Below are positions 216 through 64,000 of a DNA stretch of 64,000 bases, in pieces. This DNA comes from Mesorhabditis belari (lineage: Eukaryota > Nematoda > Chromadorea > Rhabditida > Rhabditidae). A model generated the notes under the pieces. The model did no database searches, had not been told where the DNA came from, and saw only the letters and a program-made list of their open reading frames with translations. Each line of letters starts with the position of its first letter. Within the stretch, counting starts at the first letter, position 1. Where the stretch lies: positions 1,752,001 to 1,816,000 of the forward strand of contig CAUEEP010000925.1 of NCBI GenBank assembly GCA_958450365.1. Direction: 5' to 3'. The position numbers and the translations under genes were made by a program.

Positions 216-653
216 ATGACATCCAGAATTAAGGATGCGATGAAATTTAGGGTGCATTTTAGCAACGACAGCTTTTGTATGGCGTCGAAGTCTAACGCCC
301 GAAAAGTGAATGCAGAGAATTAGCGGAGTTTGTGCAAATTCCGAATGGAAACGACAGAATGACATCCAGAATTGAGAATGCGATGAAATTTGGGACACGT
401 TTTAGCAAGGACAGCTCTAATAGCGGGTGAACTCGAACGCCAAAAACCAACTTCGAAAAATCGCCGTAAACTAGGGTTTTTTTCGTTTCAAAATTCGTTC
501 TGACATCCAGAATTGAGAATGCGATGAGATTTAGGGCAGGTTCTAGAAAAAAACAGCTCTAATAGCGCGTGAACTCCAACGCCAAAAGCCAACTTCGAAA
601 AATCGCCGTAAACTAGAGTTTTTTTTGGTTTCAAAATCCGTTCTGACATCCAG
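216..653 (+). repeat. Tandem array, ~142 bp period, box in + orientation
   Basis: Four boxes of the NTGACATCCAG type start at 216, 359, 500 and 643, giving gaps of 143, 141 and 143 bp. The flanks are partly similar (AATTGAGAATGCGATGA-type text follows the first three), so this is a degenerate tandem repeat. I see no convincing exon in 1-1200. Confidence 0.8.
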
Positions 654-920
654 ATCGACCGTTTCCGATGAGATTTTCAAATTTTAATTAAATTAATTGA
701 AGAAAAATGCAAGGATAAGGCTTAAGCATTAAATTTGTTGTTTTCCATGAATTTTCCTTGAATTTCCTTATCCGGATCATCTAGCTACACCGCTTTTTTC
801 TTGGATTTATCCGAGAATCCATTTTAATTGAAATTTTGAAGACCTTGAAAAAGAAAAAAGGGTTTCTCAGCATTGACGCATTTTAGGGATTTTGACGAAG
901 CTGAAAAATGAGATTTGAAA

Positions 921-1045
921 GGCGTATCCAGCTGGATTACGGTATTCAGTGGATTACGGTATCCAGCTGGATTACGGTATTCATTCAGGCTAGATTGGGT
1001 ATTCAGTCTAGATCAGCTGGATTACGGTATTTAGTCTAGAATCAA
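921..1045. repeat. Short tandem of GGATTACGGTATTCAG-like units
   Basis: The phrase GGATTACGGTATT followed by CAG or TAG occurs four or five times between 921 and 1045, separated by short spacers. No gene is apparent here. Confidence 0.6.
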
Positions 1046-1269
1046 ATTTTGAAGAGCGGATAATTTTTAGATGATGAAAACAGTAGTGTGACTTCCAGAA
1101 GGCAGAAAAATCGAGAAGAAAAGTTTTTTTGATTTTCGGAGAAACGAAAAAAATCGTAGAAAGGATGCCAAGGGTCATCGAGTTGAAAAACAGTAGTCAA
1201 GTAGCCATTCATTGATCCAAGAATCTCTCGTGACTTCCAGAACTCCCAGAACTCAAATCCTTATTTCAG

Positions 1270-1373
1270 CCGAGAGGTCGTGGTGGCCGAGAGGTCGTGG
1301 TCGTGGTGCGGCCAATTCTGCATCGCTCAACATTGACTCGTCAACAGCAGAGTTGCTCCGTCGACTCCACTGA
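1270..1373 (+). CDS. Possible last exon of an upstream + strand gene (RG-rich tail)
   Basis: A good acceptor (TTATTTCAG) precedes 104 nt that read, after two carried-over bases, ERSWWPRGRGRGAANSAS and onward to LLRRLH and a TGA at 1371-1373. The RGRGRG stretch followed by an acidic and leucine-rich end resembles the tail of an RNA-binding protein, but the other + frame is also open, so the frame is not certain. No upstream exon is visible in 1-1269, so the body of the gene would lie left of the window. A second candidate terminal exon (1570-1602, KRPPRVTVFI then stop) follows another TTTTTCAG. Confidence 0.25.
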
Positions 1374-1858
1374 ACACAAAAATTAGTGAGTTGCCTGCCA
1401 GCTTGGAGATAAATCGCCGTTTTGATGTTTTGTTTTTGAGGAATTTCAAAAAAATTGAGTCCAAGTCTGAGGCGCCGAAGTTGCTGGGAATTTAAATGCA
1501 AATTTCAAGGAAACTATTAAGCACAAATTTTCTAGTGACATCCAGATCGCTCAAAAATCCCTTTTTCAGAAGAGGCCACCTCGTGTGACTGTGTTTATTT
1601 GAGGCCTCCCTGATTTCCCTTCTGCCGAATAGGCCTATATTCAAATTTCTTCACACTCAACTACATAACTTTACGGTTACTCGCCCGCAGCTTCTCAAAG
1701 GACCGAAAAGAATCGAGGTGAGTTCCAGATTGAGCAGATCAACTCTTAGTTTCTATCTCTTAACGAAAAACAAGTCGCAAAACGTCATTAGAACATTCGT
1801 GTACTCAAGAAAACCTAGAATCGCTGTAAGTGGCCATTTTTCGTTTTCAATCAATGTT

Positions 1859-2441
1859 GTGACTTCCAGATTGAGCAGATCAACTCTTAGCTTTTAGCCT
1901 CTATCTAAAAATAAGTAGCAAAACGGCATTAGACCATTCGTGTACTCAAGAAAACCTAGAATCGCTGCATTTTTCGTTTTCAATCGAGGTTGTGACTTCC
2001 AGATTGAGCAGATCAACTCTTAGTTCTTAGCTTTTACTCAAAAACAAGTCGCAAAACCTCATTAGAGCATTCGTGTACTCGAGAAAACCGAGAATCACTC
2101 CAAGTGTCCATTTTTTGTTTTCAATCGATGTTGTGACTTCCAGATCGAACAGATCAACTCTTAGCTTTTAGCCTCTATCTAAAAATAAGTAGCAAAACGT
2201 CATTAGTGCATTCGTGTACTCAAGAAAACCTAGAATCGCTGCAAGTGGCCATTTTTCGTTTTCAATCGATGTTGTGACTTCCAGATCGAACAGATCGCCT
2301 TTTAGCTTTTAGCTTTTCCTCAAAAACAAGTCCCAAAACGTCATTGGCTTGTTTATGTACTCGAAAAAACCAAGCAAACCAACCAACCAGAAAAAAAGCA
2401 AGTGTCCATTTTTCTTTTTCAATGGATATTGTGACTTCCAA
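1859..2441 (+). repeat. Tandem array, 133-157 bp units
   Basis: Units carrying GTGACTTCCAG start at 1859, 1992, 2133, 2274 and a degenerate 2431. Each unit repeats AGCAGATCAACTCTTAG-like and GTGTACTCAAGAAAACC text. Copies at 1535 and 1718 are looser members. There are no exons inside. Confidence 0.8.
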
Positions 2442-2689
2442 CATCGATAGATCAGATGTTTTTTTCAAGCTTTCGCCTCATAAATAAATCACAAAACGTC
2501 ATTTGATCGTTTTGTGTACTCGAGAAAACCTGGATCGCGTGTTTCGAATAGAAATTTTCGAGCTCACGCCAGAAATGGCAAAAAGATATTTACGATTGTA
2601 CCGCAAACTCGCATTTTTTTCGCTTTCTCATGAATTTTATCACGCGGAAACATGGAGGAAAACATGAAAAGGGAAAATAACATCTGAAA

Positions 2690-11752: not shown

Positions 11753-12499
11753 CTAGCTACAGTAGTTTTTAAAGCTCCGAAAAGTACCGAAAGGAATATA
11801 CAAAATGGACAAAAAGATACAAATAAAAGCTTTTCAAAAAAACTCGACTTTTTCGGATTATGAGAAGATCGATTTTATATTTATTCCATTTTTTTCCCCA
11901 ATTTCATTTATTCTTTATTTGCATTTGTTTCCAAGAAAGATTCTATTTCCAAATCGAGAAAGCATTCGAATTGTTGAATATCAAGTGATTTTGTTGATAC
12001 TTTTCGAATAAATATTCGCTCGTTTCATCGCCGATCATTTCCATGATTGTCTCTTTGACGAATTGTCGACGATTTTTCTCGTTTTGTCGATCGTTTCGCG
12101 AGAAAACCTCTATCTAAATGTTTTGTTTGTTTTATTGATGATTGAATTGATGATTGGATTGATGGCTAAATGAATTGATCATTAAATTGATCATTAAATT
12201 AATGATTAAATGAATTCGACTACTTTAAACAACTTTAAACCTAGATAAATAGGCAAGCTTGGCTAGGATTTAACTCCAAGAACGAGAGCTCTTTGAATTG
12301 TCCCGGAATTGTCTCGGGATTGTCCCTGCAGTGTCCCGGGATTGTCCCAAATTGTCCCAAATTATCCCAAAATTATCCCGGATCCTTTTTTTGATAGATT
12401 TATTCTTTTATCTCGTTCTTTTTCTTACTTATGACTGAGATTCCTTTTTATTCGCCTTTTATTTCAAGATCGCAACCCGCCAATCACAATTGGAAAGCG

Positions 12500-16300: not shown

Positions 16301-19300
16301 CTAGCAAAAGCCTAAAGTACTGTAAGTTGTAAATGAGTACTCCTGTCGTTTTCTAGGTTTTCTATAGTGAGCCGATTAAGAAAAAACGCTTTTTGGTCAA
16401 GCTGGATGTCACTAGACAAGAATCTGGCGGAAAAATGAACAGTTTTTAATGTTTAACTTTTCTGGGCAGAGTTGCGTAACTAAACCGGACGTTTTCCTCG
16501 ATTTTTTACATAACAATTCTTGAGTTAAAGCAATTTTTGGTCAAGCTGGATGTCACTAGACAAGGATCTGCCGGAAAATGAATAGTTTACAATGTTTAAA
16601 ATTTTGATCAAAGTTGCGTAACTAAACCGGACGTTTTCTCCGGATTTTTACATAACAGTTTTGGAGATAAAGCAATTTTCGGCTAAGCTGAATGTCACAA
16701 GACAAGAATCAGTGAAAATGAACAGTTTATAATGCTTACGATTTTTGAGCAAAGTGGCGTAACTAAACCGTCCGGTTTCTCCGGATTTTTACATAACAGT
16801 TTTGGAGATAAAGCAATTTTTGGTCAAGCTGGATGTCACTATTGGAGAATCTATCGGAAAAAGAACAGTTTACGATGTTTAAAATTTTTGATCAGAGTTG
16901 CGTAACTAAACCGGCCGGTTTTCCCGGATTTTTACATAACAATTCTTGAGTTAAAGCAATTTTCGGCCAAGCTGGATGTCACTAGACAAGAATCTGCCGG
17001 AAAAAGAACAGTTTATAATGTTTAAATTTTTTGATCAGAGTTGCGTAACTAAACCGGACGTTTTCCCCGCATTTTTACATAACAATTCTTGAGTTAAAGC
17101 AATTTTTGGCTAAGCTGGATGTCACTAGACAAGAATCTGCCGAAAAAAGCCTTTATTTAAATCTTTTAAAATTTCGATAAAATTGCGTAACTAAACCGGA
17201 TGCTTTGACGAGAATGGCGGGAATTTTTTTTCGCATCTTATTCTACCTGCTCAATTGCCCGAGTGAAACGATCAACGGCGACGCGATTTCGAAGAAGCTC
17301 TCCTCAAATCTCTCCTCGCCACCCTTGACGACTTTGAGCACTCCGTCGAGTGCTTGCAGTGAGGCACGAATCTAAAATTTTTTAAAATTTTAAATCAACT
17401 TTTCTTTTTTGATTTTTAGCTACTGTGACATCCAGGATGATCAATTTTTAAATCGAAATTTATTTCTGATCAGCCAATTCCTCGAAAACCCACCGTTCGG
17501 CGATTCTCGGCAAACTCGTCGCCGGTTGGCGCTTCGACATACTGATCGAAGCCCAGGAAGCTCACAAGATCATCCAAATTCGTTTTCTGCTCAAATTTCT
17601 TCGGCACCTCCAGGGATTTTTCGAGTAAAAGACGTTTCTCGTGGAAGGAAAGCGGGTAGTTCACGAGATGAGCGAGCAACTGAAGCTGGGGGAAATTCTC
17701 GGTGATAATAGCTTTCAGAAAATTTTTCTTGAATGAAATAGAAATGCTGGAAGGCACGGAAATGAATGGCTGAGGTGGAAAATGGAAATTTTAAAATAGA
17801 CCTGTGATAGTACTGCTTCTTGCATTGCTGTCAATCTGTCCGTGACACTCTCCCGAATTGAGATGATTTCTTCAATGAAACGCTCGTTTTTCTAAATCTT
17901 TTCATTTTAAAGAGCTGAATTTCTTTTTCCTCACCGCGAAAAGATGCCCGTGACTCTCGAGACAGCCGAGAAGACCGGACAGGGTGTGACGCTTCGTCTC
18001 GAACTGAATTTGGGGAAATTCTGGGGTGAGAGTCTTTTGTTAAAGCAATTTTTGGTCAAGCTGGATGTCACTAGACAAGAATCTGCCGGAAAAATGGACA
18101 GTTTACAATGTTTAAAATTTTGAGCAAAGTTGGGTAACTAAACCGGACGTTTTTCTCGGTTTTTTACAACACAATTCTTGAGTGAAAACGCTTTTCGGCC
18201 AAGCTGGATGTCACTATTTGAGAATCTAGCGGAAAATAAACAGTTTACAATGTTTAAAACTTTGAGCAAAGTTGTGTAACTAAACCGGATGTTTTCCCCG
18301 GATTTTTACATAACAATCCTCGAGTTAAAGCAATCTTTGGCTAAGCTGGATGTCACTATTGGAGAATCTAGTGGAAAAGTGAACGGTTTACAATGTTTAA
18401 AATTTTGAGCAAACTTGCGTAACTAAACCGGACGTTTTCTTCGGTTTTTTACATAACAATTCTTGTGTTAAAGCAATTTTTGGCTAAGCTGGATGTCACT
18501 ATTGGAGAATCTAGCGGAAAAAGAACAATTTACAATGTTTAAAATTTTGACCAAAGTTGGGTAACTAAACCGGACGTTTTCCCCAATTTTTTACACAAAA
18601 ATCTTTGAGTTAAAGCAATTTTTGGCTAAGCTGGATGTCACTAGACAAGAATCTGCCGGAAAAATGGACAGTTTACGATGTTTAAAATTTTGAGCAAAGT
18701 TGCGTAACTAAACCAGGGTAAAATACCTGTTTCTCCCGAATCTCTCCCCATTCCACTTCGAATTCGATAACGAGAATCTCTCTTATCATTTGGAGATATT
18801 CAAAGAGAGTTCCCTCATTTCTGACAATGATTGGGAGAAGACTGTGAACGATCGAAAGAATTCCATTTATGTGGATCCATTTCGAGGATTTTATCTGAAA
18901 AAAAGCTTATTCTTTTAGCTTTTAGACGCTAATAGATAATAGATAATAGATAAATAATCTAGATTTTTAAATCCTCCCTTTTAAATAAAGAATTTTGAAC
19001 AAAAAGCAAAACGATTGGCGGCAAGAGGAGTCGAACCCGCGACCCATCTCTTCCGTTCGTTTTAGAGACGCACATGTTAACCACTCGGCTATGCTTGAGA
19101 CGGCTGCCCCACGCTTGAAAGAGGTTAACTCGACCACTTGGCCATCCTTGAGGGACGTTAACTCGGCCGCCGGTCTCAAGCAGGCCATGGCGCAGTGCGA
19201 GCGCGCTTTTCTCCAGCCCAAACAACGCGGGTTCGATTCCGGTCCGTATCGGGACTTCTAATTTTTTTGAAAATTTAAAAACAATATCATAACTAGATGA

Positions 19301-22300: not shown

Positions 22301-25300
22301 AGAGAATGCCGGATTTCGATGATTTTTAGCCAATCTGGAACGCACACTGTACGCAGACTTTATTTTAAGCTGATAGCTAAAGCTTAAGCTAAATTTGTAA
22401 CTTTTTTTGATCATTCTGGAACACCAACCAAACTTGGACTGTGAATGAGCGAGAAACCGGTGTCGATCAGCCATTTCAAAGCCGGCGATCGCTCGTCGAA
22501 CACCTCGGCCACTGTATACCCAATCGTAATCAAGAGTTGCATTGAAGCTTTGAGAAATTCGTATTCTTTTAGAAACGGATGCGGATTGGTGGAAATCTGG
22601 AAAGAAAAATTGAACTTAATCTGGTTTTTTTCCATTGAAAGACTCCAGATTTCAGTTAATTGAAGGAAAAATTGTAAAAAAAAGGATAAAAATATGATAT
22701 ACCGTATTTTCTCTAATAGTTGTGCAACCCTTTGAACACCAAACTTTGAACTGAAGTATCTCGATGTTGAGGTGTCCAATTCAAGTCTTCTTGGTCTCAT
22801 TAGATGCGCCAGGTCTTTCTCTATCTATTAGTATAAAAACTATTGAGATTGGATGGTCCAAAGCCGAGATACTTCAGTTCAAAGTCGGGGTGCCAAAAGC
22901 TCAAGGGTGAGCCGAGTTGGTGACTATTTTACGGTTTCCAATCTTTCCCAGAAGCTCAACACTCAAATCCCCACTAGATCTCATCATCAGCTACATTTTC
23001 CGATCCCACATCGATAGGTTCTGATAAGCGGTTCTCGAGATTTCAAAGAATTTAGGCAACGCTCAGGGTCCACTACTATTAGAGAAATAGTGGTATTTCA
23101 AGACAAAACAAAAAAGTTCGAGTGGCAGTAAGCGGAGTCGAACCCGGACCCTGTGGGTTGTAGACCAGCGTGCTGCCGACTGTGCCAAGGGAAGCGGTAG
23201 ACGCCCTTCGAAAAAGTCGCTCTTAACCGAGTTAACCGGGTTAACCGGGGTGACCGGGTTAAGCCGATAAAAGAGAAGAAACGTAGTTAAGAGCGGTTTT
23301 TTCTTGGCGGGGATTGAGGTCGCTATGGCGCAGTCGGGAGGGCGCTCGTCTACAAGCCAGAAGATCGGGGTTCGACCCCCCGCACTGCCACCAAATTTTG
23401 ATTTTTGCAATAAATCGCTAAGAAACCTTTTCTTTGAGTCTTTCGATTCGTTGGATGAGTTGCTGGCAGAGAATTCCTTCAGAGATCATTATTTCGAAGC
23501 CTTTTCTGGAGCGTTTTCTTTCAAAACCCTGCCTCAACACTGACCTCTTCTTCCCCAAAATGCACATGACATTTAACGCGTCGTGCGTGATCGGCGAGCC
23601 GACGAATTGAGCGATTCGACAAACGAGAAGTGAAAGATTTCCATTCAAAATCATTTCAATTTGCCGCTCGGCCAATGCCTCGAAAAAACCGAGCACAAAA
23701 TGCGAAACCGCTAACTGATTTGAGTTTGAGTCTAAAACTTTGAAACTTTTGAATTTGATGAACATTTGGCAATGTCAATGTTCATTCTGGAAGTCACAGT
23801 GAATTTCTATTCACCTCCAAGCGATTCTCGATCCGGCAAAAAGTCGCTCAACCTTGGCATCAGCGTTTGCGCATATTTTGTGAGATTCTCGTGGAGAAGC
23901 TGTAAGTTTTTCAGTTCAGAGGTCAAATTGGAAGTCACGAGGGGATTTGGTGAAATGAAAACGTTGAAATGGTGAAGATTGAAAAAAATGTGAACCTTGT
24001 TTCTTGTCGGCTTTTCCTTTACCGCTTTCATGGCCACCACACTGTCCTCGGTCAGCAATCTCGTCAAGATGGACATCACGAGAGCTAGTGCCGTGCTTTG
24101 TTCCTCTAGATTCTCAAGGGTAAGGTTTTTGTCTTGACTCACTCTTAGCGATGACGTCATCGAAGGCTTGCGTCCAACGGTTCCATTCACTGGGGAACGT
24201 TTGCTCGATTAGGGACTGGAATCAAGGGTTTATTAGAGCTAAAGCCAACCAGGAGCTAGGGTAGACAAGCTAGAAAGCCTGGAGCTGGGCAGACAAGCTA
24301 TTTACACAACCTTTTCTGCTAAAAATCAATTGGATTCGAGTTCAAGGGATTTTCTCGAATTTCACAACGATTTCCTATTGAATTGATTTATTTTTTGGGA
24401 GTTCTGGAGGTCACTAGAAAACTTAAAAACAAAAATTTGGGGAAATTTTGAATTTTAAAAAAAATTTTTAATTTGATTAAGCTCAAGTCAAACCTGACAA
24501 GCTGTGGCTGCTTTCTCGCAACAAATGAATCCATTGAGTGCTTTTGGTGATCGGATGAATGCTGAGAACGTTTCGATAACGTTTTTTTGTCGATTTGGCT
24601 TCATTTCTCTCCATTTTTCTCTAAATTTTGGGATTTTTGGAAGATTGGGAGATTTTAAGCTTGGAAACTCGTTTTTTGAAATTTGTAAGTCGTTTTTTTT
24701 ATTGATCGTTTTAAATAGCCGTTGTGACTTCCAAAATTTGATTTAAGCCCAATTTAAACATAATTTTATCGTTTTCTTTCCACGATAATGGCTTGGCTAC
24801 CGAAAAATCGGAGATGAGCTGAATTTTTCGAGATTTCAAAGTGAAATGGGGTTTTTAAATCAAGAAATAAACGATCTGGAAGTCACAGAAGCGTTTAGAA
24901 AAAGATTTAGATTGATATATGCAAATTTCGAATTTGGTATCCGGTATGATAAAAAGATATTCAGCTAATCAGCTTTTCTCGACAATCTCCTGGAAATTTT
25001 GTTTTCAATAGCCGTTGTGACTTCCAAAATTCCATTCATGCCCAATTTAAACATAATTTTATCGTTTTCTTTCCACGATAATGGCTTGGCTACCGAAAAA
25101 TCGGAGATGAGGTGAATTTTTCGAGATTTCAAAGTGAAATGGGGTTTTTAAATCAAGAAATAAACGATCTGGAAGTCACAGAAGCGTTTAGAAAAAGATT
25201 TAGATTGATATATGCAAATTTTCTTGCAAATTGAAATGGGGTTTATTGGGAAGGGAAGATTGGGAGATTTTAAGCTTGGAAACTCGATTTTTGAAATTTC

Positions 25301-39500: not shown

Positions 39501-42500
39501 GTCTCGTGCGCCACCGAGTAGGCCAGGCGGTAGTACTCGATCGCTTTGCGAGCCTAAATTCGAATATCTGATAGATTTTTATAAATAATTTTTTGAAATT
39601 CGGTCATTCTGGATGTCACAACAAATTCTGGTTTAGTTAAAAGGGGAAAAAATGAAAATTGAATAAGTTGATTTCTGACGTTACAGGACTGAGTGATTTT
39701 AGAGATGAATATGCTAGCTAGCTGGTTGACTCGAATAAATTTGGGCCTTCTGGAATGCACTAAGCCCACCTCGTTCAGCATCATATGCGCGTTGGCCAAA
39801 TTTGTGTAGGCTCGACGAGACGCTTGTCGATCGCCGAACTGGTGCGCGATGTCGAGACGCTAAAATTTTTTCAACTCAACCAGCACTCATTCTGGATGTC
39901 ACACTTTCATTTGGAGCACTTAAAAATCGAATTTCTTTATTTTCGGACCACCTGCATATGGTAGTCGACAGCGCCGCGAAAATCGCGAAGAATATAAAAG
40001 TTGTTGCCCAAATGTCCGAGAATTCGGCCGACGAACATCGAGTCGTTTAGCGTGCGTGCCAGATCGAGGTTCACCCTTAAAATCAGCTCAATTTTCCATA
40101 TAAAAACCTTAGAATTTTCGGTGAACGTCATTTGTACCGTAGCTGATGGATTAAAATTTGAAAAACGGTTTTAAACCACTTCCATCATGGTCCGTGAGGT
40201 CCAGATTGGCCGTAAATTAAGCGCTAATTGGGTAAAAATGAATTCTCGTGGGATAAATTCGCTCAAAATCGATCGCTTACCTGAAATAGTCGTTGCTCTT
40301 GTTTAGATCATCTTTCGCTTGTTGCCATGTCGGTCCGTCGACATCATTTGTCGATGGACACATCCGGGAAAGCTCTTTCCCCCGAGCTTGATGCGCAGTA
40401 CCCAAATGAAACAAGGCACGCGATTCGAGGAACTGAAATTTCGGAGAATGGTTAGAATTGAAAGGAATTTGAGGGATAGAATTGTTTTGAAGCAATCTTA
40501 GAACCCTAATTGGCTTCCTAGCTAGGCCATTTTCTTACAAGATAGACTCAGGAAGGCTCAGGAAGGCTCAGAAAGGCTCAGGAAGGCTCAGGAAGGCTCA
40601 GGAAGGCTACAAGATAGGCTTAATTGACAGAAACGTAACGTAAACATTTGTCGGTTCTTTTTGCCATTGGTTTGCCAGCCCAGCTCCTTCCAATTTGACT
40701 ATTTTGACTATCATTCGATGCAGAATTGAATTGCGCTTCGAATGACACCAAGATGACCTCAGAATATAGTATCCATGCCAAGTTATGCGGCAAAAAGTAA
40801 AGTGGGCGGGGCTCAGCTTTTTAGCCAATAACTTTGCTTGAATATTATATTTTGAGTTCGTTTTGGTGTCATTCGATGCGGCTTCGATTCTGCGTCGAAT
40901 GACACCAAAATGACCTCAGAATATAGTATCCATGCAGATCTATTGGCTAAACTCCGCCCACTTTACTTTTTGTCTCATAACTTTGCTTGAATATTATATT
41001 TTGAGTTCTTTTTGGTGTCATTCGATGCGGAATTCGATTCTGCATCGAATGATAGTCAAAATAGACAAATTGGAAGGAGCTGGGCTGAGAAAAACACGAA
41101 AAACAATGTTAAAAAGAACCAATAGATGTTTTCATTACAAGTCTAGAACAATTGAAGTCTAACCAGCCCTGTTTTCGACTCACCCGATCGTTCAATTGTT
41201 TCGCTAGCTTGAGTTGCGTTTCGAAGTATGACAAAGCCATCTCATATTGTCCCACGGCTTTCATCGCGTTTCCGAGATTCCCGCACGCTTTCGCCTCACC
41301 CGTTCGATCGTTGAGCACCCTAGAGAAAGAGATTTTCACTATTTTTCCCTATTTTCCACTATTTTTCACTATTTTTCCCTATTTTTCGCTATTTTTCCGA
41401 ATCCTGGAGCTCAAAGCTTGAGTTGAAAACTTTTAAAGAAAAATAGAGTCGATTTCGATTTTTCTCTACTACGTGACATCCAGGATAGACAAAGGAAAAA
41501 GATTTTCTCAAAAAAAAAACAAATTAGGAACCCTTTTAAGGCCTTAACTCTATTCGTGAGGTCCAGGATTGATGGAACAAGGAGAAATTTTGGGGATTGT
41601 TTTGTAAGAAGCTTTAAAAGCAGCATAAGACTCACCTGGCCAACAGCAAATCGTTTCGGTGAAACTCGATGGCTTTCGAGTAGGATCCGACGGAGAAAAA
41701 GGCGTTTCCTAGTTGGGAGTAAATGGCGGAAAGGGTCAGTAAATCGGAGGTGCCGATGGCGATTGCCGCCTCCATCGATTCGATTCCTGGAAATTTTGAA
41801 AGAATTGGGTGTTGGCTAACTGTTGGCTGGCTCGGGCTTAGGCTTGGACTTAGGCTTAGGTTTGGGCTCAGGCTCAGGCTTAGGCTTGGACTTAGTGCGA
41901 AAGCTCGTGGTTAGCGCCTCGCAGTGAGTCTATGTGGGTTTGGGTTAACCCCCCATTTTCTGGATGACGTTAGGCTAAGGCTTAGGCTTGGGTCAAGGCT
42001 TGGGCTCAGGCTTGGGCTTGGGCTTGGGCCTTGGCCTAGGCTCCTCTAAGCCCAAGCCGAAGCAAGAATCTAGCATCAATTCATCCTTTGATTTGGTGTT
42101 TGGGGTCTGGAAAGGCCTAGCTATGGACTGAGCCTAAGCCTGAGCCTAAGCTCGAAGTCTAAGCCTAAGCCTAAAGCTGAGCCTGGGCCCGAGCCTAAGC
42201 CTGAGCCCAAACCTTGACCCAAGCATAAACCTAAGCCTAAGCCCAAGCCTAAGCCTGAGCCTAAACTTGAAAATGGTTTGGTTTTCGTCAAATTAGGTTT
42301 GAGAATTGGCCAGATAGGAAAAAATGGAAAAAAATGACCCAGCTCGAAGTTCAGGATCGCGTTTAAAAAGCTTTACGCGCTCCGAGACAGGTAGGCTAGT
42401 GGATAAGGCGCTTGGATACAAAGCGAGACAATCCCTCTTTGCTCTGGTTCGATTCCTCCTCGCGCCAACTATTTTGGAATTCTTCGCAAATTCCTTTTCT

Positions 42501-46195: not shown

Positions 46196-46349
46196 CTGAA
46201 AAAACTGGAAAAGGTTATGGTTGATCGTTTCGTCGTTTTCTAAAAAGTGCGCTTCAGGAAAAGCTACCGAAAGCTACCGAAAGCATTTTTAAGCATAAAT
46301 TAGCCTTTTTATTTCCCAAATTTGCTTTCTACCGTGATTTCTGCGAGAT

Positions 46350-47469
46350 CTGGAACTCACAGCAACTTTTGAGATGCAAATTTTACGGAATAGTCGAAGC
46401 TTTAGAATCTCATTGCTCTGATTGCTTTGCCTCCTGCTGTACGTTCCAGGATTTCGAATTTCTTCGTAATTTCAAAATTTTTGGCCAATCTGGAAGTCAC
46501 AACGAGTTTTGAGATGTAAATTTTGCGAAATAGTCGACGTTTTAGAATTTTATTGCTCTGATTGCTTCGCCTCCTGCTGTAGACGCCAGGATTTCGAATT
46601 TCTTTGTAATTTCAAAATTTTTGCCCAATCTGGAACGCACAGCAACTTTTGAGATATAAATTTTGCGAAATAGTCGAAGTTTTAGAATTTCATTGCTCTG
46701 ATTGCTTCGCCTCCTGCTGTAGGCTCCAGGATTTTGAATTTCTTCGTAATTTCAAAATTTTTGCCCAATCTGGAACTCACAAGGACTTTTGAGATGTAAA
46801 TTTTGCGGAATAGTCGAAATTTTAGAATTTCATTGCTCTGATTGCTTCAACTCCAGCTGTAGGCTCCAGGATTTCGAATTTTTACAAAATTTTAAAATTT
46901 TTGGCCGATCTGGAACGCACATGATTCAATTCATTAAAAAAAAGCGAATTTTCGAATTTCGAATTTCGAATTTTTTTGACATATTACCGGGTTACGGTAG
47001 CTTTCCCTGAAAGAGCACCTTTTAGAAAACGGCTTGGCTTACGGTAATGTAGCATTTTTTTAAATTTCTACTCTCTCGACGAAAAAGGACCACATTTCTC
47101 GCTAAGCTCTGCATTTTTTTTTGTTCATTTTTGCTCACCCGACTCCAGCGACAGGTTGAGACTAACTTCGCTGAAATTTTTTGAATTCCATCTATGATTC
47201 GGAAATTTTTGAGCTAATTTTCGGCTAATCTGGAACGCACAGCAACTTTTGAGATGCAAATCTAACGGAATAGTCGAAGTTTTCGAATCTCATTGCTCAG
47301 GGTGCTTCGACTCTAGCTGTACGCTCCAGGATTTCGAATTTTTACAAAATTTCAAAATTTTTGCCCAATCTGGAACGCACTTGACTGAATTTTTAATAAA
47401 AAAAACTAATTTTTTGATTTTTTAAAATTTCAAAATTTCACTTTACTTAACAACCGATGTGCGCTCCAG
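46350..47469. repeat. Array with paired opposed boxes every 140 bp
   Basis: Minus-type boxes at 46350, 46490, 46630, 46770, 46910, 47230 and 47370; plus-type GTA-box forms at 46439, 46579, 46719, 46859, 47319 and 47459. Each pair is 89 bp apart and each series steps by 140 bp (320 across a gap). Confidence 0.85.
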
Positions 47470-50500: not shown

Positions 50501-53500
50501 GCCTATCTGGAACGCACACAGAGTCTAGAGCCAATTTTGAAGCCATTTTTGCCATTTTTGCCATTTTTGAGCCAAAGATCCATTCAAGGCTAATGGGCAT
50601 TTTGCCAAAGTTGCGTAACTAAACCGACGATACCTTCTCCTCTCTGAAAATGTTGAGAATCCATCGAGGCACCGGTGTGTTCAAATAGAGCACACGTTCG
50701 TGGATGAAAATGTTGATCACCGAGACGGCGATGGCGAGAATCGAGATCGCCGTTTGGATCAACACGTAGCGGCCTGGAATTTGTGTGGGTTTTGGCGGTG
50801 AATTTTGATAAAAAGAAAATTTTTGGACATCCTGGAACTCACAGCAGACAGTGGCATGGCAAAAAAAGTGGATTTAAAGTTTTAAATTTTCGACGATTTT
50901 TGACTTTGGAGTTTCACCACAAAAAGACCCCGTAGCCAATAAGAGCGGGTCACAAGAGGGCGATCGGACAGCAGCCATGGTGTAGTGGTTAGTGCGCTGG
51001 GCTAGAGAACCAGTGGGGGGTCTTCCCGTGGGTTCGAGGCCTACGGCTGACAAAAATCGTTGCTTTTTGAGACCCCTAGCCAATAAGAGCGGGTCACAAG
51101 AGGGCGATCGGACAGCAGCCGTGGTGTAGTGGTTAGTGCGCTGGGCTAGAGAACCAGTAGGGGGTCTTCCCGTGGGTTCGAGTCCTGCGGCTGACAAAAA
51201 TCGTTGGTTTTTGAGACCCCTAGCCAATAAGCGCGAGTCACAAGAGGGCGATCGGACAGCAGCCATGGTGTAGTGGTTAGTGCGCTGGGCTAGAGAACCG
51301 GTGGGGGGTCTTCCCGTGGGTTCGAATCCAGCCGCTGACAAACTTCGTTGCTTTTTGAGAAAATGTTTAAAAAGTTTCAAATTTCTCTTGAAAATAAATA
51401 AATACTATTTCTAAAGCTTTTATATTGCTTATTAGAACTAGAAAAGCGCTGAGAAAAGCGTCAAAAAAGCTTTCACCTCTTCTCTCCTTCTTCCTATCCG
51501 TTCTCCGATGATTCTTCAGCCCATTCAACTTTACTTTATATCATTTAAAAGCTTCAAACTTCCTCTTAAACTGGTTTAATTTAGAATATTCTTTGTTCAT
51601 TTTGTTTGTTCACTTTGTTCATTCACCTAACAACGGAACACCCTCGCTACTCTTCGGCATCTCCGATGAGACCATGTCGAGGATAACGGCCTGTAAAGTT
51701 GATTGTAGAAATTTAAATTTAAATTCAAAAATACCATAGTGAGCAACGTTGTCAATCCGAGGGAAACCTGAAAATTGAAAATATGCAAAGCTTTCTGGTC
51801 AGAAAATCGTTTTGCACTGAACCAACGCTGTAAACTAGTTGTATGGCTTTGTTTTCGAAACCTGACGATTTTTTTGGCCCATCTGGAGCGCACACGATCT
51901 TTTGCATCCATTTTTTGGATCAGAAAAGCGATTTTCGAAAGATTGATTGTTGCGTAACTGAACCAACGCTGCAAACTAGTTGTATCGCTTTGTTTTCGAA
52001 ATCTGACAAATTTTCTAGCTTATCTGGAGGTCACACAGTTGTTTGAATCCAGTTTTTGGATCAGGAAAGCAATTTTCGGGAAGCAGATTATTGCGTAACT
52101 AAACCAAAAAAACCGTAAATCCAGTTTTACTGCTTGTTTTCGAAATCTGGCAAATTTTTTGGCTTATCTGGAGCGCACAGGGTCTTTTGCATCCATTTTT
52201 TGGATCAGAAAAGCGATTTTCGAAAATCAAATTATTGCGTAACTGAACCAACGCCGTACATTAGCTTTACGGCTTTGTTTTCAAAATCTGACAATTTTTT
52301 TGGCCTATCTGGAAGGCACATGATCTTTTGAAACCATTTTTCTCATTATAAAGTAGCTTTTTGAAAATCAGATTATTGCGCAACTGAACCAACGCCGTAC
52401 ATTAGCTGTAAGGCTTTGTTTTCGAAATCCGATAAACTTTCTGGCTTAACTGGAACGCACACGGTTGGCTGCATCCATTTTTTGAATCAGAAAAGCGATT
52501 TTTGAAGTATTGATGGTTGCGTAACTGAACTAACGCCGTAAATCCAGTTTTGCTGTCTGTTTTCAAAAGCTGACAAGTTTTCTGGCTTATCTGGAAGGCA
52601 CACGGTCGTTTGCATCCAGTTTTTAGATCAAAAAAGCGATTTTCGAATTTCGATTATTATTGCGTAACTGAACCGACGCCGTGAACAGCCAGCTGGACCG
52701 CTGGCTGGACGGCTTTGCTTTCAAATTCTCAAACCTTTTCCTGTCGATCGCCGAGAATTCCATGCGGTGTGAATAAGCCAACAATCGAGACGTTTACGAT
52801 GAGAAATGTCGGAATTAGAATCACCACGATGTAGTTGAGCGGTTTGCGTTTGATTTTCTGAAATTTTTGCAATAAATTAGCGCAATTACTCAACTTTTTG
52901 CGAATCCTGGAAGTCACAGAGTCTAAATGCGATTTTTCAGAAGCCACCGATTCATTTAGCGAATTTCGAATTTGAGAAAAGCCGCGTAATTGAACCGGGT
53001 TGGAAAATTTGCGAAACTCGATTTTAAAGACTATTCAATTGCATAAATTGGTTGTGTGCTTTCCAGCTTGCACTCACCAAATGATAAAACACTTCCTCGT
53101 AGGTGTTCACGTGGCCGTTTGCTCCCTCGTAAGATTTGACGACTTTCTCGGCGGTAAAGTTGAGAATTTCCCACTCGGAGTTGTGCTGAAAATTTGAGTG
53201 GCAATGTTTAAGTTGCCTCCCAGCATTGGCAAAGCTTCAAATAAGAACTTTAATGGAAGGAAAATGGCTCTGGAAAGTTGTTGAGAAGTTTTGAAGGCGA
53301 TTTTTCATCTTTTTTCCATGAATTTCAACTCGATGAAATCGAGATTTTGGGCGTTTCAAAAACGGTCAACTCACGGCATTCGTCGGCACGTGCACCTCGC
53401 GAATGATATGCGAGATTTGGTGATACTGATAGCTCCACGAGCCGAATTGCAGTGAGCACAGCTGGGTGTCGAATGGGAAATTGAGGATCGACATTGAGCA

Positions 53501-56212
53501 ACCGATATCGATCAACTGAAAATTGGTGCATCTGGAACGCAGATGACCGTTTGAGTCCAGTTTTTAGATCCGAAAACCAATTTTTGAAAGATTGATTATT
53601 GCGTGACTAAACTAACGCCGTAAAGCCAGTTTTGCTACTTGTTTTCAAAATCTCAGCGATTTTCTGGCCTATCTGGAACGCACATGACCGTTTGAAGCCA
53701 GTTTTTAAATCAGGAAACCAATTTTTGAAAAATTGATTGTTGCGTAACTGAACCAAGGCCGTAAAACCAATTTTACTGCTTGTTTTCAAAATCTGAGTGA
53801 TTTTCTGGCTTATCTGGAACGCACACGACCGTTTGAGTCCAGTTTTTAAATCAGAAAACCAATGTTTGAAAGATTTGCTATTGCGTAACTGAACCAAGGC
53901 CGTAAAACCAGGTTTACTGCTTGTTTTCTAAATCTGATCAATTTTCTGGTTTATCTGGATGTCACAAAAGCTTTTGAGATAATTTTGAAATGAATTCAAG
54001 TGATTGTCAACATGGCGCAGTGGGTTAAGCGCTTGTCACGGTTCAAGTTTCGAACCCAGGGGTCAAGGGTTCGAGCCCGGGACCGGTTTTTTTGATTTTT
54101 TAGTCTTTGAATCATTTTTTTAAAGAATACCTTATTGAAATCGGCTTCTACAATTCCCTCATGACTGACTCGGACGTTGAAAAGCGCGAGCGGCTCTTTC
54201 ACATCAACCCTAAAATCATAAAAATTGTAAAATTCTAATTTTCTTGTTTTTTCTTCTTTAGCAACTCCAATGACCTCCAGTTTAAAGGAATTTTTAAAAA
54301 AATTAGCACATACGTGTTGAAAATGTATCCATCGGGCAGCCAGACCTGATTCGCCGGCACATTTATCATCTAAAGCTTTGATGGAGGAGAACCAAAGCGA
54401 GATTTTTGATCCAAAAACTTCTCCCCACCTGAATTCCGCCCCACTCCGACGCGTTCCACGTGAGGAACTCGTCTTTCCAGCTCTGAAATTCGAAATTTCG
54501 GAACCAAGATGTTTTTATGTAAATTTCCACGTCTAGAGGTGGATATTTTCGTCGGAATTGTCGAACTGGATGTCACAACAGGTATTGGCTAATTTAGTTT
54601 CTTGTTTAAGATCATTTAACCTTTCGACCCTCCGAGGTTCGGAGCCGTCAGAGTTGACCCCCTTCCTTTTCCCATCTTTCATTCTAGACCTCAAAAGAGC
54701 CACCCATGATCATCGTGATCTCCAATTTGCATATTCAATCACTTTGCATAAATTATAGCTCAACCATTTTCAAGAAAATCGCCCAGTCCCGTACGTGGGA
54801 GGAGAGCGCATCCAAAATCGGCAAAAAGCGTGAGATTTTTGTGCATTTTCGAATTTTTGAGGATTCTCCGAGTTTTCGTCGAGTAGAATCAGTAATTTTG
54901 GGTGGTAAGGGAACCAAAAAATGCAAAGCCAAAGAATCTTTGGAAAACATTGTAGTTGTGGCGATGTTTTATGGTAAAATGATAGTATATGAAAAAGTTT
55001 ATGCCTGAAAAGTTAGTTATGGATGTCACCGTGTAATTTGGAATTAAGTTCACGAGCAAATTTGTAAATTTTTCGAGATGGGAAAGCAGCGCAACGTAGC
55101 TGGTTAGATTTAAGCGCCGAGAAGTAGCTAATCGATGAAATTTTAAATGGAAAGGAGATGCTGGATGTCACAGGGTAATTTGAAATTACTCTCGTACGGA
55201 AATTTGTAAATTTTTCGAGATGGTTAGAGTAGCGCAACGTAGCTGGTTAGATTTAAGCGTTGAGAAGCAGCTAATCGATGAAATTTTAAATGGAAAGTAG
55301 ATTCTGGATGTCACAGTGTAATTTGGAATTACTTTCGTACGGAAATTTGTAAATTTTTCGAGGTGGTTAGAGTAGCGCAACGTAGCTGGTTAGATTTAAG
55401 CGCCGAGAAGTAGCTAAAAGATAAAATTTTAAATGGAAAGTAGCTTCTGGATGTCACACTTTACTATGGAATTACTCTCGTATGGAAATTTGTCAATTTT
55501 TCGAGGTGTTAAAAGCAGCACAACGTAGCTGGTTAGATTTAAGCGCTAGGAAGCAGCCAATCGATGAAATTTTTATAGAAAAGTAGCTTCTGGATGTCAC
55601 CCTGTAATATGGAATTGCTTTCGTACGGAAATTTGTAAATTTTTCGAGTTGGTTAGAGTAGCGCAACGTAGCTGCTCAGATTTAAGCGCTAGGAAGCAGC
55701 TAATCGATTAAATTTTTATAGGAAAGTGGATTCTGGATGTCACACTGCCGTATGGAATTGATTTCGCAGCGAAACTGAAAATTCTCTCGCCAACCTGCGG
55801 AAACCACAGCAACAACTTGATCTGCTCGCTCAACTCGTTCTGAAAGAGATTTTTGTAGGCCAGCGACCAGGCAGTTGCTTACCACTTCGATCAAACTGTA
55901 GACTTGCGGTTGAACAGTGATATTTAGACGGGAATTGTAGTCGCGAACGGGACGAGTTAACTGAAAAGGGTAATTAAACCGATCTAAAAATTTGATTTGT
56001 AATTTCTTCAAAAATAAATTTACTAATTGCTGGTGTGACTTCCAGATTGAAGGAAAACGATGAAAAAATGTGACCTTATTGTAGCCGGCGAGGAGATGAG
56101 CGACCAAGTCTTTCTCGTAGACCCCAAAGCAACCATCGAGTACAGCACCGAGTAGATACAAGAATCGGAATGTGCCGAGGGATATCCAGGATCTACCGTA
56201 TCCTTTCCACAT
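47539..56212 (-). CDS. Nematode Cys-loop ligand-gated (probably cation) channel subunit
   Basis: Fifteen exons in phase, 465 aa: 56212-56075, 55960-55883, 55839-55795, 54482-54429, 54369-54314, 54209-54131, 53515-53375, 53185-53078, 52857-52735, 51767-51735, 51690-51627, 50773-50634, 49837-49808, 49692-49522 and 47676-47539. N-terminal hydrophobic leader (FRFLYLLGAVLDGCFG), ligand-domain text WKDEFLTWNASEWGGIQ and VWLPDGYIFN, Cys-loop CSMSILNFPFDTQLC (13 residues between cysteines, FPFD), M1 YIVVILIPTFLIVNVS, M2 region GDRQEKVSLGLTTLLTM and MPKSSEGVPLLG, M3 ISILAIAVSVINIF, intracellular loop, M4 MSCFLILNLCTTVLMFW. The E before the M2 lysine suggests cation selectivity. There is no vicinal CC in loop C, so it is a non-alpha subunit. 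Start ATG has an in-frame stop upstream. Confidence 0.9.
47800..48135. repeat. Minisatellites in a channel-gene intron
   Basis: CCAGGGTTGATCA-type units at 47790-47880, then about three copies of a 33-bp unit containing CAGCCGTGGGTTCAGCAAGG at 48005-48105. Confidence 0.7.
49060..49372. repeat. Repeat family A copies
   Basis: GATGCGCCAAG landmarks about 140 bp apart (near 49140 and 49280), with TATTGGTATAAAAACTATTG and GGGGCGGGGCC. It is followed by a GC-rich CCCCTTTTGCG tandem at 49385-49445. Confidence 0.8.
49944..50517 (-). repeat. Five-unit TTGCGTAA-family array
   Basis: Boxes at 49944, 50086, 50227, 50367 and 50507 (140-142). TTGCGTAAYTGAACC follows the 50086 box at +67. In a channel-gene intron. 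Confidence 0.9.
50971..51340 (+). tRNA. Three tandem tRNA-Ser(AGA)-like units, 144 bp apart
   Basis: Copies start at 50971, 51115 and 51259. Each has TGGTGTAGTGGTTAGTGC, an anticodon arm CTGGG-CTAGAGA-ACCAG (AGA at 34-36 with T33), a GC-rich long variable arm and GTGGG-TTCGAGT-CCTGC-type T arm. Copy 2 has the best acceptor stem (CAGCCG/CGGCTG). Upstream of each unit is the same CCAATAAGAGCGGGTCACAA. They may be functional class II tRNAs or a tRNA-derived repeat; the G-A mismatch closing the anticodon loop favours the latter. Sense-antisense to the channel gene. Confidence 0.5.
51883..52601 (-). repeat. Six-unit TTGCGTAA-family array
   Basis: Boxes at 51883, 52024, 52168, 52309, 52450 and 52591 with triplets GCG, GGT, GCG, AGG, ACG and AGG: the flanks are nearly constant while the box triplet changes. 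Confidence 0.9.
53532..53965 (-). repeat. Four-unit TTGCGTAA-family array
   Basis: Boxes at 53532, 53673, 53814 and 53955, all 141 bp apart. TTGCGTAACTGAACC starts 67 bp after the 53673 box. Confidence 0.9.
54005..54086 (+). tRNA. tRNA-like sequence, degenerate
   Basis: TGGCGCAGTGGGTTAAGCGC then GGGTTCGAGCCC. Either of two anticodon arms could form; neither is canonical. Antisense in a channel-gene intron. Confidence 0.4.
55019..55743 (-). repeat. Six-unit 143-bp array (family C)
   Basis: Boxes at 55019, 55161, 55304, 55447, 55590 and 55733. Units contain GGAAATTTGTAAATTTTTCG, GCGCAACGTAGCTGGTTAGA and AAGCAGCTAATCGATGAAAT. The same family runs in the opposite direction at 59347-59926. Confidence 0.92.
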
Positions 56213-57560: not shown

Positions 57561-57569
57561 TGACATTTG

Positions 57570-59287: not shown

Positions 59288-59346
59288 GGTTTCTGCAGGC
59301 CCGCGAAATTTTCAGTTTTGTGGTGAAATCAACGCCATACTAAAAT

Positions 59347-61570: not shown

Positions 61571-62037
61571 AGTTCCCAGAAATCTCCTCGCTTTTCAAAT
61601 TTCTCAAATTTAAGCCCAAATTTAAAGCCCAATTTCCCCTAGCCCCTTATCAAAGCCTTGCCACGTCACCAGGGCCTAGAATTTTCTAATTTCGTGTCGA
61701 ATCGGTTTTCTTTGGCCTTCTTTGGCCTTCTCTTTTGCCTTTCTCTTCTTTTCCCCGATCATCGGGCACGCGTCGGCCTTTGATCAGTGAGAAATTGAAA
61801 TTTAACGAAAAATCCCCAGCAGCGAATCGAGTTCACGCCAAAATTTTCAATTTTTCAAATGAAAAACGATTTTTTTCCAAATCAAATGACAAATCCTGGA
61901 GAGCATAAAGCACAAAAATAAAATTTAAAAATAATTTTTACACTCTTGGGAAATTATGAACTCCATTCTCACGAGTTTAAACGAAAAAAATCACGGTGAC
62001 ATCGGATTTCGAAGAATTTTTACCCTATTTACCCATC

Positions 62038-62342
62038 CTGGATGTCACACAAGAGTTTCGGCTCATTTTCTTCTAGCTACGACTAATTACAGTAGGCCGA
62101 GGATCCAGGGGTACGGTAGTTTCCGACAGTAGCCTAAAAACAGTTTTATATATAGGGACTCTAAGATTTTTTGCTTGATTTGTCAATCCTGGATGTCACA
62201 CAAGTGTTTCAGCTCATTTTCTTCTAGCTACGACTAATTACAGTAGACCGGGGGTACGGTAGTTTCCGACAGTTGCCTATAAACAGTTTTTTATATAGGG
62301 ACTCTAAGATTTTTTGCTTGATTTGTCAATCCTGGATGTCAC
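62038..62342 (-). repeat. Three-unit array
   Basis: Boxes at 62038, 62189 and 62332; units share TTCTTCTAGCTACGACTAAT and GGGGTACGGTAGTTTCCGAC. Boxes then continue at 62483(+), 62637(-) and 62781(-) in non-repeated DNA. Confidence 0.85.
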
Positions 62343-62924
62343 ACAAGAGTTTCGGCTCATTTCCTTCTAGCTACGACTAATTACAGTAGACCGAGGCTCC
62401 AGGGGTACGGTAGTTTGAGTCACCATTTAACCTACCACAAATTTCTGTTACTTTTCAAAGAATTCTTTCAAATCCCTATCGCGTGCCCTCCAGATCCCCC
62501 GGAAAAGTCATTTTCTATCGAATCGGAGTCCCAGAGTTTCTCCTATTGCCTCGAAGTCTCCACTCCGAATAAGTTCACCGGTTTTTCTCGTGTTTTCTCG
62601 CATTTCCCTATCGTCATTTTTTTCGAAAAGTTCATCCTGGAGAGCACAGCGCCTGAAAAACTCGAAATTTTGTTCAAAATCCGCTTAGAAATTCGCGGAT
62701 TTCAGGCACTCCCTCTTTTGCAATCAATTTTGCAATCAACTCAAAGAAAAACGACGAATGAAACGACGGGACACGTCATTCTGGATGTCACTCTGTACTC
62801 TCTCGGAGTTGTCTCGTGTTTTCAAGCATTTTTTTTCTTGCTCAACTCTGACTCTTAGTGTTGCTCAAATCACGGCTTTCATCAAAAAAAAATGACGGAA
62901 AAATGAGAATGCCTCGGCCGACTA

Positions 62925-63088
62925 CTAACTAGGCTTTTTCTTTTCCCCATTTCCCCCAAAGAAACTCTCATTCGCACTTCTGGAGTCGGTAAGCGGTTGC
63001 CGAGGCGACGCTGGCCAAAGCCTCTTCTCCCATTTCTCCAATTTCTCCAATTTCCCTTCGATCTCTCGTCTAACCTTTTCCTTAGCTT
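62925..63088 (-). CDS. Possible C-terminal exon with a short coiled coil
   Basis: Minus strand: KVRREIEGKLEKLEKWEKRL then QPLTDSRSANESFFGGNG and KKKPS, stop at 62925-62927. Charged heptad-like pattern. The next frame is open as well and no upstream exon is assigned, so it is a guess. Confidence 0.25.
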
Positions 63089-63267
63089 CTGTGCACTCCA
63101 GCTTCTCTCATTCAGTTGTATTCCGACGTCATTCGATGTGATAGAGCCGGAAATGTGGCTCAATTGGTTTCTCTAGGCTAGAGAGCTCAAAAGAAAAGAA
63201 AAGAAAAGAGAAACCAGGGAAAACTTTTGAAAAACACTGATGTGACCTTTCGTGCCGATGGTTGAGA

Positions 63268-63427
63268 TCGTTGAAATGTCTTGAAATGCTAGAATTTACG
63301 ACTACAGTAGATCGATTCGAGTTCTCCCCCATTTCCCCTCTATTTCCTCATCTTTATTCGTTTTTATTTAAAATTTTCCTCTTCCTGGAACGCACATTAG
63401 CCACTAGAGCGAGAAATTTATTCATAC
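63268..63427 (-). repeat. Right arm of the widely spaced inverted repeat
   Basis: Partner of 56489-56650 in reverse orientation; only a few substitutions and 1-3 bp indels separate them, making them much younger than the other repeats here. Confidence 0.9.
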
Positions 63428-64000
63428 ATTCAAATTGAGCGCATTTGGTTTTGAGTGCGTAGGTGTTTGCGTTGAATTTGGCTTAACTTATTCAACTACC
63501 CCGCTAATTTTTCATCATTTTCGGTCATCCTGGAAGGCACAAGAGGCCCTGGTCGCTGAGATTGACAATTTCCAGCTGTTTTCGTCGCTTCAAAAAAATC
63601 AACTCCCGATGACATGAAGAGAAGAGGGGAAAGTCCCTTTCCTCAGTCCTCAGCTTTGAAAAAAGGATGCGTGGGCTGACGTGGGCTCCAACTAGGCGAG
63701 AAAAAGCTTTTCTTTTCCTTCTCCTTTCCCGGAGAGCCCCTGGCTACCCGTTAAGCGTTCTTCGTCCTTCTGAAAAGGAGAAGGTCATCCCTCCTTTCCT
63801 TTTCTCGTCGATATTTTGTAGATACGAGGAACAAATTGAATTTCTGGGTGATCTGGAGGGCACTGGAAGTTCTGATGAAGAAATTAGTGGCGGTTGGCAT
63901 TTGAAAAGTTCAGGTGCTCAGTTGCGTAATTGATCCGAAGCATTTCTGGTTCTAAGCAATAGCTATCTCATGTTTTTTTGCCCTTTTTGTCTCTTCTGGA
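63428..64000. other. Right edge, no supported gene
   Basis: Boxes at 63530, 63853 and a cut one at 63996. Two forward frames look weakly protein-like (EALVAEIDNFQLFSSLQKN near 63540-63617; YEEQIEFLGDLEGTGSSDEE near 63820-63880) but lack clear splice partners. Confidence 0.4.

Follow-up and report, generated by a model that had tools for sequence, protein, structure and literature searches.

Analysis of a 64,000-nt stretch of the genome of the nematode Mesorhabditis belari (GCA_958450365.1, CAUEEP010000925.1, positions 1,752,001-1,816,000 of the forward strand; hereafter the window) revealed a bipartite box with the core GTG-MSN-TCCAG, which, on balance, is probably recognized by a chromosomal protein with sequence-specific binding and is set out at nucleosome-like steps in satellite-rich domains. 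One protein or dimer would contact the half-sites GTG and TCCAG, the box would keep a constant position with respect to a nucleosome, and units losing the half-sites or the nucleosome register would be removed by selection. The lineage is mostly thought to be holocentric. Such sites would most likely serve to mark large domains of chromosomes for use in segregation or in meiotic pairing, in parallel with CENP-B boxes, pairing-centre motifs and the 19-bp box of root-knot nematodes, though the choice is a guess. As a more tentative and rather doubtful possibility, the boxes might constitute a genetically written nucleosome lattice: a strict, orientation-free box, accompanied by a second site at half-unit distance, that keeps phase across unrelated satellites and introns and defines large domains as a regional centromere- or pairing-like element. 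If true, this would mean that the places where chromosome domains form in nematodes are encoded in the DNA; the lattice also makes it testable whether nucleosome spacing is set by a protein bound to DNA. Centromeres of C. elegans are reported, in the available part of PMC9071541, to depend little or not at all on sequence.

The box and its conservation in tandem arrays

Exact searches with GTGNNNTCCAG recovered 179 matches in the window (62 on the plus and 117 on the minus strand), against a mean of 0.68 and a maximum of 3 in 100 shuffles of the same sequence, which rules out a chance motif. A 28-bp weight matrix derived from these matches detected 243 boxes between 216 and 64000 (96 plus, 147 minus, in 68 orientation runs; ~0.2 in Markov-resampled sequence), in good agreement with the ~250 copies of GTG-NNN-TCCAG counted in the first-pass annotation. 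Every example position given there is a box: those at 216, 16688, 33501 and 33644 match the matrix only, and the remainder are exact. Beyond the core there is a wider preference for AWTGNCCAAAA; variants are intermingled inside the window, and positions no more than 71 bp from a box centre make up 52% of its length. An Rfam scan of the window gave no match, and literature searches with the box motif or a 141-143 bp repeat returned unrelated matches only.

Tandem arrays were called with TRF without use of the box; the box is present in the consensus of 44 of the 48 arrays with periods of 130-165 bp, with the exact core in 38. Since it is common to arrays with dissimilar flanks, it is not an artefact of one tandem repeat. 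The array units are mostly 140-143 bp, and the arrays grow by local tandem copying. Given that counting conservation over boxes picked by their score is biased, we used the TRF-based arrays instead, requiring a box of at least 9 bits in the array consensus and measuring change inside arrays only. Relative to their own array consensus, the eight fixed bases mismatch at 11 of 1,412 positions (0.8%), as against 1,439/17,931 (8.0%) in the flanks and 65/525 (12.4%) in the middle triplet, consistent with the earlier proposal that the box is maintained while the rest drifts. Such a near-invariant word in dissimilar repeats suggests a candidate docking site for a chromosome protein. A second spot of low variation (3.1% mismatch) lies half a unit from the box. 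The wider box is without constraint inside arrays, with 7.3% change at +11 to +22 and 11.3% at -5 to -1 vs 8.0% in the flanks, and this counts against our main reading.

Exemplars on the minus strand, all with the consensus box GTGACATCCAG, include the arrays at 16390..17200 (period 143, 5.7 copies), 18039..18714 (period 142, 4.7 copies) and 55020..55766 (period 143, 5.2 copies); that at 32861..33431 (period 142, 4 copies) has GTGCGTTCCAG. Among the copies at 46348..46921 (minus strand, period 140, 4.1 copies) the triplet varies (AGT, ACT, CGT) with the fixed bases unchanged. The minus-strand array at 29718..30410 (period 142) carries TACGGTAG on the plus strand in every unit (29813, 29955, 30097, 30238, 30381); this word exemplifies the second site, at half a unit's distance from the box.

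These arrays bear on an alternative that we consider unlikely, namely that the box is needed for amplification and not by the host, as a nick, recombination or transposase site where units are copied or moved; every surviving array would then keep it, and box-to-box insertion would preserve phase in either orientation. In line with this, the arrays are short and local and comprise many dissimilar sequences, those on contig C5 face one another like the ends of an element, and Box 1 of Meloidogyne satellites has been proposed to act in a cut-and-paste process (available text of PMC3694981). Moreover, CENP-B/Tc5-type DNA-binding domains are plentiful in the genome (at least 150 matches, the best 150 of 497 candidates; none in 14 control genomes), an abundance which equally makes it possible that a putative box binder belongs to that class. 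Against it, the core is fixed (0/48 changes) in the minus-strand array at 51816..52686 (period 141, 6.1 copies), whose flanks, at 13.1%, are the most diverged of the window's box arrays.

Spacing and A/T phasing

Same-strand lags in the window peak at 140-149 bp, with echoes at 280 and 420. The 139-145 bp phase of the first-pass annotation holds as the period of tandem copies and fails between unrelated neighbors, where the step is ~158 bp; outside shared TRF arrays, no same-strand neighbors 140-146 bp apart have unrelated flanks (z <3). Kinship of flanks was judged by z-scores, grouping by flank identity having proved noisy. By this measure 57 of the 242 consecutive box pairs are unrelated in their flanks and belong to no common array, and their spacings fall at 162.5 +/- 13 (11 pairs), 316 +/- 14 (20) and 474 +/- 19 bp (13), with 13 elsewhere. 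They form a ladder of ~158 bp, mostly between opposite orientations or over box-free steps, so that the phase indeed survives where flanks are unrelated. Unrelated neighbors less than 600 bp apart (n=46) give a resultant of 0.74 near 159 bp, whereas none of 2,000 random draws exceeded 0.51. With 66 blocks jittered, the peaks contained a mean of 52 lags and the troughs 40, compared with 109 and 2 in the actual data. An autocorrelation peak outside tandem repeats, the check proposed earlier, is seen as a ladder of lags to ~1.8 kb between boxes sharing no TRF array, in a count that takes in diverged copies. One mixed-orientation ladder, on both strands at 24724..25634, has spacings of 152, 141, 152, 152, 152 and 151 bp. 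At other loci opposite-strand neighbors fit the lattice more poorly, with 4 of 29 inside the 190-280 trough on contig C701 and best periods of 168 and 185, and this weighs against our main reading. The box-free steps are mostly not filled by hidden degenerate boxes: in 31 of the 34 gaps measuring 285-350 bp not even a weak box is seen halfway along, and the other three have a weak match there (score >=6), vs none at control offsets, the difference overall being non-significant (P 0.14). Both these empty gaps and the spacings of ~158, 316 and 474 bp that span them speak against a role confined to amplification.

The A/T dinucleotides of the flanks keep a 10.2-bp phase relative to the box, and do so on other contigs as well; this phasing reaches some 60 bp to each side, which would not be expected of a nick site. 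For 114 dissimilar units of the window, as for 97 from other loci, none of 1,000 randomizations attained the observed amplitude, and the profiles of the two sets correlate at 0.92. A period of ~10 bp in fixed phase is a trait of nucleosome-phasing DNA; weaker second peaks occur near 9 and 11.5-12 bp, and the centre of mirror symmetry of the pattern is ambiguous. Changes in the window are fewer at A/T peaks (14.0%) than at troughs (20.7%), a difference absent at other loci (20.6% vs 21.2%). The nucleosome-sized phasing noted at first is borne out for spacing and A/T phase, with the position of the nucleosome itself being predicted from sequence. A unit of 142 bp falls short of the length of a canonical nucleosome with its linker, which counts against the nucleosome reading.

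Alternatively, one ancient satellite might once have filled the domains, with the box as its slowest part and the lattice as a relic bearing re-amplified patches. We judge this rather improbable as a full account; it explains origin and is compatible with selection on the box. Flank identity is near random (0.290 vs 0.264 shuffled; 89 units), and yet 67% of 45 held-out flanks exceed the shuffled 95% point in register. The likeness is partly base-specific beyond A/T content (~2.6 bits per unit over the null), with one preferred base in common at some positions, and the phasing may therefore be partly inherited from one old satellite. Conversely, unrelated opposite-strand neighbors keep the phase; with flanks near saturation, the spacing should have been blurred by indels and the phase lost through random inversions.

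Genomic distribution and gene context

Across the 207.6-Mb genome there are 15,661 copies of the box vs 1,173 of its reversed form, clustered in patches, and its density in the window is ~37-fold over the genome average. The boxes gather in domains, ruling out a genome-wide system, as had been thought possible; density drops to background in most sampled stretches outside the domains, bearing out in part the earlier refuting condition of shuffled-level density elsewhere. Clusters occur inside contigs C569, C564 and C708 and terminally on C701, all of them contigs without chromosomal placement. Three 2-kb samples of C701 at 1.86-1.95 Mb had no box, nor did 3 of 5 1.2-kb samples of C569 from 1.65 to 2.20 Mb; the domains are patchy, which counts against the domain-marking reading. 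One 3.5-kb query from the window recovered related pieces on C230 (88%) and C640 (82%) plus a dispersed element (best 40 of 379 candidates); as only pieces matched, an allelic copy was rejected for this query.

The window encodes an LGN/Pins-like protein (29264..40500, minus strand; one gene by inference), with GoLoco exons at 29621-29704 and about 29274-29393, the array at 29718..30410 lying upstream of the first, and, at 38293-38583, a weak TPR match; further TPR-like exons, like the borders of the exons, were judged by eye. Boxes occur in both orientations between its exons, in keeping with the earlier report of boxes in introns. The box GTGAGTTCCAG at 29264 overlaps a stop codon or a possible donor of this gene, but the commonest core, GTGACA, is not known as a donor consensus, and a role as 5' splice site was rejected. 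Ten window ORFs gave one Pfam match, GoLoco, and no PDB match; ten from other C701 loci had no Pfam match, two of these also having no PDB match.

It is very unlikely that the box domains are germline-limited DNA lost from somatic cells, marked or packed by the box. In its favor, regions of 1.3 to 500.6 kb are lost in three Caenorhabditis species, two of those in C. auriculariae being largely 150- and 160-bp satellites; against it, the available text mentions no box common to eliminated regions (PMC13370393). The presence of the LGN/Pins-like gene further argues against such a fate, though genes too can be eliminated.

Comparison with known systems

Alpha satellite has a 171-bp unit with a CENP-B box in long homogeneous arrays. 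The window resembles it in combining a nucleosome-length unit with a (here putative) protein-binding box, and differs in unit length, in its arrays and in the sequence of the box: the CENP-B core TTCGNNNNANNCGGG, with one mismatch, occurs 7 times in the window vs 11.9 expected, as the first-pass annotation had held.

That annotation had also dismissed a match to HIM-8/ZIM motifs, and this stands for HIM-8, whose motif, TTGGTCAGTGCT, occurs 3 times in the window with two mismatches vs 3.8 expected, and is rare in the genome (17 vs 6 reversed; 0/17 on C701). The pairing-centre motifs of C. elegans differ in sequence from the box, and literature holding their strings was unrelated by title among the matches listed. 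The HIM-8 counts lower the prospects of an array read by a HIM-8/ZIM-type zinc-finger protein, with half-sites round a variable middle and one dense region per chromosome, which strikes us as improbable. The size and restriction of the domains and the bipartite motif would suit it, as would the many short motifs in one chromosome region, 12 bases long and enriched in terminal segments, that pairing proteins bind; the mixture of variants inside the window would not, and the accessible text mentions no nucleosome-length lattice for pairing centres (PMC9071541). The genome holds the exact nematode SL1. Exact C. elegans SL2 is absent from it, which may place the species beyond the clade with reported pairing proteins (available part of PMC8455136).

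Box 1 of Meloidogyne satellites, as described in the available text of PMC3694981 and PMC9673304, is 17 bp long and shares 10-12 of 17 bases with the human CENP-B box, in monomers of ~170 bp; the satellites are otherwise 32-64% alike. It is likewise one short conserved box in otherwise dissimilar satellites, yet is CENP-B-like, while CENP-B-box matches are not in excess in the window. The closest kin, likened by description, appear to be the CenH3-associated tandem repeats of these root-knot nematodes with their conserved 19-bp box (Despot-Slade et al. 2021, via the available part of PMC9673304): they too are nematode sequences in short arrays of divergent repeats around one box, as are the 44 of 48 box-bearing arrays here with their near-random flanks. 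In contrast to what that source describes, the window's box stays in phase from one array to the next unrelated one, occurs in either orientation and between exons, and is restricted to domains.

Sequence and constraint of the box

The box, an 11-bp motif in which the half-sites GTG and TCCAG surround a variable middle triplet, is found as GTGNNNTCCAG at 179 places in the 64-kb window, whereas dinucleotide shuffles average 0.68, and a 28-bp weight matrix built from the exact copies recovers 243 boxes where ~0.2 are expected. Besides the eight fixed bases there are weaker preferences: within the middle triplet the first position favours A or C, the second C or G and the third A, T or C, and AWTGNCCAAAA is preferred 3' of the box. 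The boxes lie 96 on one strand and 147 on the other in 68 single-orientation runs, and 52% of the window is no more than 71 bp from some box centre. At 46350-47469 and 22052-22345 the matrix also marks extra boxes within units, dividing 140-142 bp into 89+51 or 79+63. A search of open-access papers revealed no mention of the motif.

Constraint was counted in arrays of period 130-165 that a tandem-repeat finder (TRF) had called independently of the box, both in the window and in ten further loci. The box is present in the consensus of 44 of 48 arrays (24 of 28 in the window), with an exact core in 38 and one or two fixed bases altered in six. When copies are compared with the consensus of the array they belong to, changes are seen at 11 of 1,412 cells for the eight fixed bases, 1,439 of 17,931 for the flanks and 65 of 525 for the middle triplet; a wider box of reduced change was not seen (148/2,021 at +11 to +22 and 96/846 at -5 to -1). 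By the consensus test the box is absent from four of the window's arrays, including the one at 50925-51360, whose 144-bp unit bears a tRNA-Ser gene (ARAGORN scored two) and which is boxless despite its similar period; at 45289-45816 the matrix finds boxes in the copies that the TRF consensus missed. Because the core tolerates almost no change while the middle triplet is free, the box looks like a putative bipartite protein site.

A candidate second site of low variation lies half a unit from the box, at positions +70 to +77 relative to its start (40 of 1,303 cells, 3.1%, against 5.9-6.2% in the eight bases beyond it), independent of where the unit is cut. Several kinds of word are enriched there (CCAGTCCT, CCCAATCTTGTTC, TTACGCAA and CAGCTACCGT) in 419 box-centred stretches, which overlap and take in related copies; the window has 30 copies of TACGGTAG, which is the reverse of CTACCGTA, where 0.20 would be expected. 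Words such as TACGGTAG and TTACGCAA mark this site at 29813-30388, 62112-62413 and elsewhere.

Spacing and phase

An amplification bias could account for the retention of the box, which we consider unlikely. In the window, 159 of 242 consecutive pairs share no TRF array, and in 57 of these 159 the flanks are unrelated, scoring z under 3 whichever strand is compared. Lags between boxes without a common array, a count that takes in diverged copies, peak at 140-159 (76), 280-329 (87), 420-489 (103) and 580-639 (95), with troughs at 170-279 (6), 350-419 (5) and 490-579 (20), and the steps continue to about 1.8 kb. The unrelated-flank pairs fall at 162.5 +/- 13, 316 +/- 14 and 474 +/- 19 bp; for the 46 of them under 600 bp the best period is 159 bp (resultant 0.74, reached by 0 of 2,000 random draws), or 162-168 under other cut-offs and a narrower scan. 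A 142-bp lattice with a constant 16 bp inserted at a junction predicts 158, 300 and 442, unlike these distances, and hence the step between unrelated neighbours is longer in itself. Three of the 11 unrelated pairs one step apart are on the same strand, at 166, 183 and 191; therefore the 142-bp spacing, which the first-pass annotation had extended to unrelated flanks, is a property of related copies. In other loci, where no flank filter was applied, opposite-strand neighbours lie within 120-189 and 280-349 in 22 of 29 cases on C701, the contig carrying the window (4 in the trough), and in 12 of 15 on other contigs, in the main agreeing with the window. The lattice may have been split at 30632-30890 by a palindromic MITE-like element, which has matching pieces on numerous contigs; the gap in which it lies measures 744 bp and contains no box.

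In 89 dissimilar units, A/T dinucleotides to the left and right of the box recur with a period of about 10.2 bp. The same phase, -2.11, recurs in 114 window units and 97 units from other loci chosen by another criterion, the amplitude being reached by 0 of 1,000 randomisations in each set and the two profiles correlating at 0.92; weaker periodicity peaks lie near 9 and 11.5-12 bp. This phase is consistent with nucleosome placement, the box then lying either at the dyad or in the linker. In leave-one-out scoring, A/T content contributes 5.6 bits per unit above the null and base choice within class 2.6 bits; given the latter, an old common origin is possible, and the lattice could then be an inherited satellite relic, a reading we find credible but doubtful. 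With their nucleosome-length steps, occurrence in any orientation and matching A/T phase, the boxes look like protein sites held in one position relative to nucleosomes.

Box domains in the genome

The assembly (207.6 Mb, 714 contigs; the window is C701:1752001-1816000) contains 15,661 exact boxes, compared with 1,173 occurrences of the pattern reversed; the boxes average 4.8 per 64 kb as opposed to 179 in the window, at whose density the net copies would occupy ~5 Mb. On C701, five 10-kb samples from 1 bp to 1.51 Mb held no exact box (two matrix matches lie near 1.5 Mb), nor did four 2-kb samples at 1.54-1.66 Mb or three at 1.86, 1.90 and 1.95 Mb; 10 boxes were found at 1.70 Mb (2 kb), 18 at 1.74 Mb (10 kb), 22 at 1.818 Mb (10 kb) and 13 at 2.000 Mb (6.7 kb). 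Among the listed matches to sparse box-sampling patterns (29, 100 of 265, 35 and 65), clusters occur on contigs C548 (mainly from 3.25 Mb), C564 (1.11-1.66 Mb), C569 (about 1.5-2.2 Mb), C688 (0.32-1.06 Mb), C694 (0.88-1.29 Mb), C707 (1.58-1.83 Mb) and C708 (0.50-1.93 Mb), and matches are rare on the 9.3-Mb C554. The domains are themselves patchy, since only 3 of 14 1.2-kb samples from C569 and 2 of 6 from C708 held a box. Some contig pairs among the listed matches (C159/C569, C210/C708 and C180/C707) repeat the same boxes with their neighbouring sequence, suggesting that both haplotypes are partly retained. On contig C5, longer box arrays face each other (163548-164733, plus; 166452-167335, minus), resembling an element with inverted array ends. 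Genome-wide, the nematode SL1 leader has 430 exact matches (reverse, 0) and C. elegans SL2 has 0.

The minus strand from 29.27 to about 40.5 kb of the window encodes pieces of an LGN/Pins-like protein, presumably one gene: a Pfam GoLoco motif at 29621-29704 (33.6 bits, E 2.6e-8), another at 29274-29393 just under the cut-off (24.3 against 25.1 bits) and a TPR match at 38293-38583 far under it (18.7 against 30.1 bits); four further exon candidates had no Pfam match. Boxes in both orientations sit between these pieces, and thus the domain contains gene sequence; that the box domains are germline-limited DNA we regard as very unlikely. The window also has a G+C-rich repeat of 50 and 125 bp at 11091-11863, with all three plus frames open for >200 codons, and degenerate TTAGGC-like hexamers inside the box domain at 41829-42264.

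Comparison with other nematode chromosome motifs

In the nematode genus Meloidogyne, satellites that share a box are reported to associate with centromeric histone (PMC9673304); in the genus of C. elegans, dense motifs are reported to be linked to meiotic pairing (PMC9071541). By analogy with these two systems, our guess is that the box might serve a chromosome-domain role in segregation or meiotic pairing.
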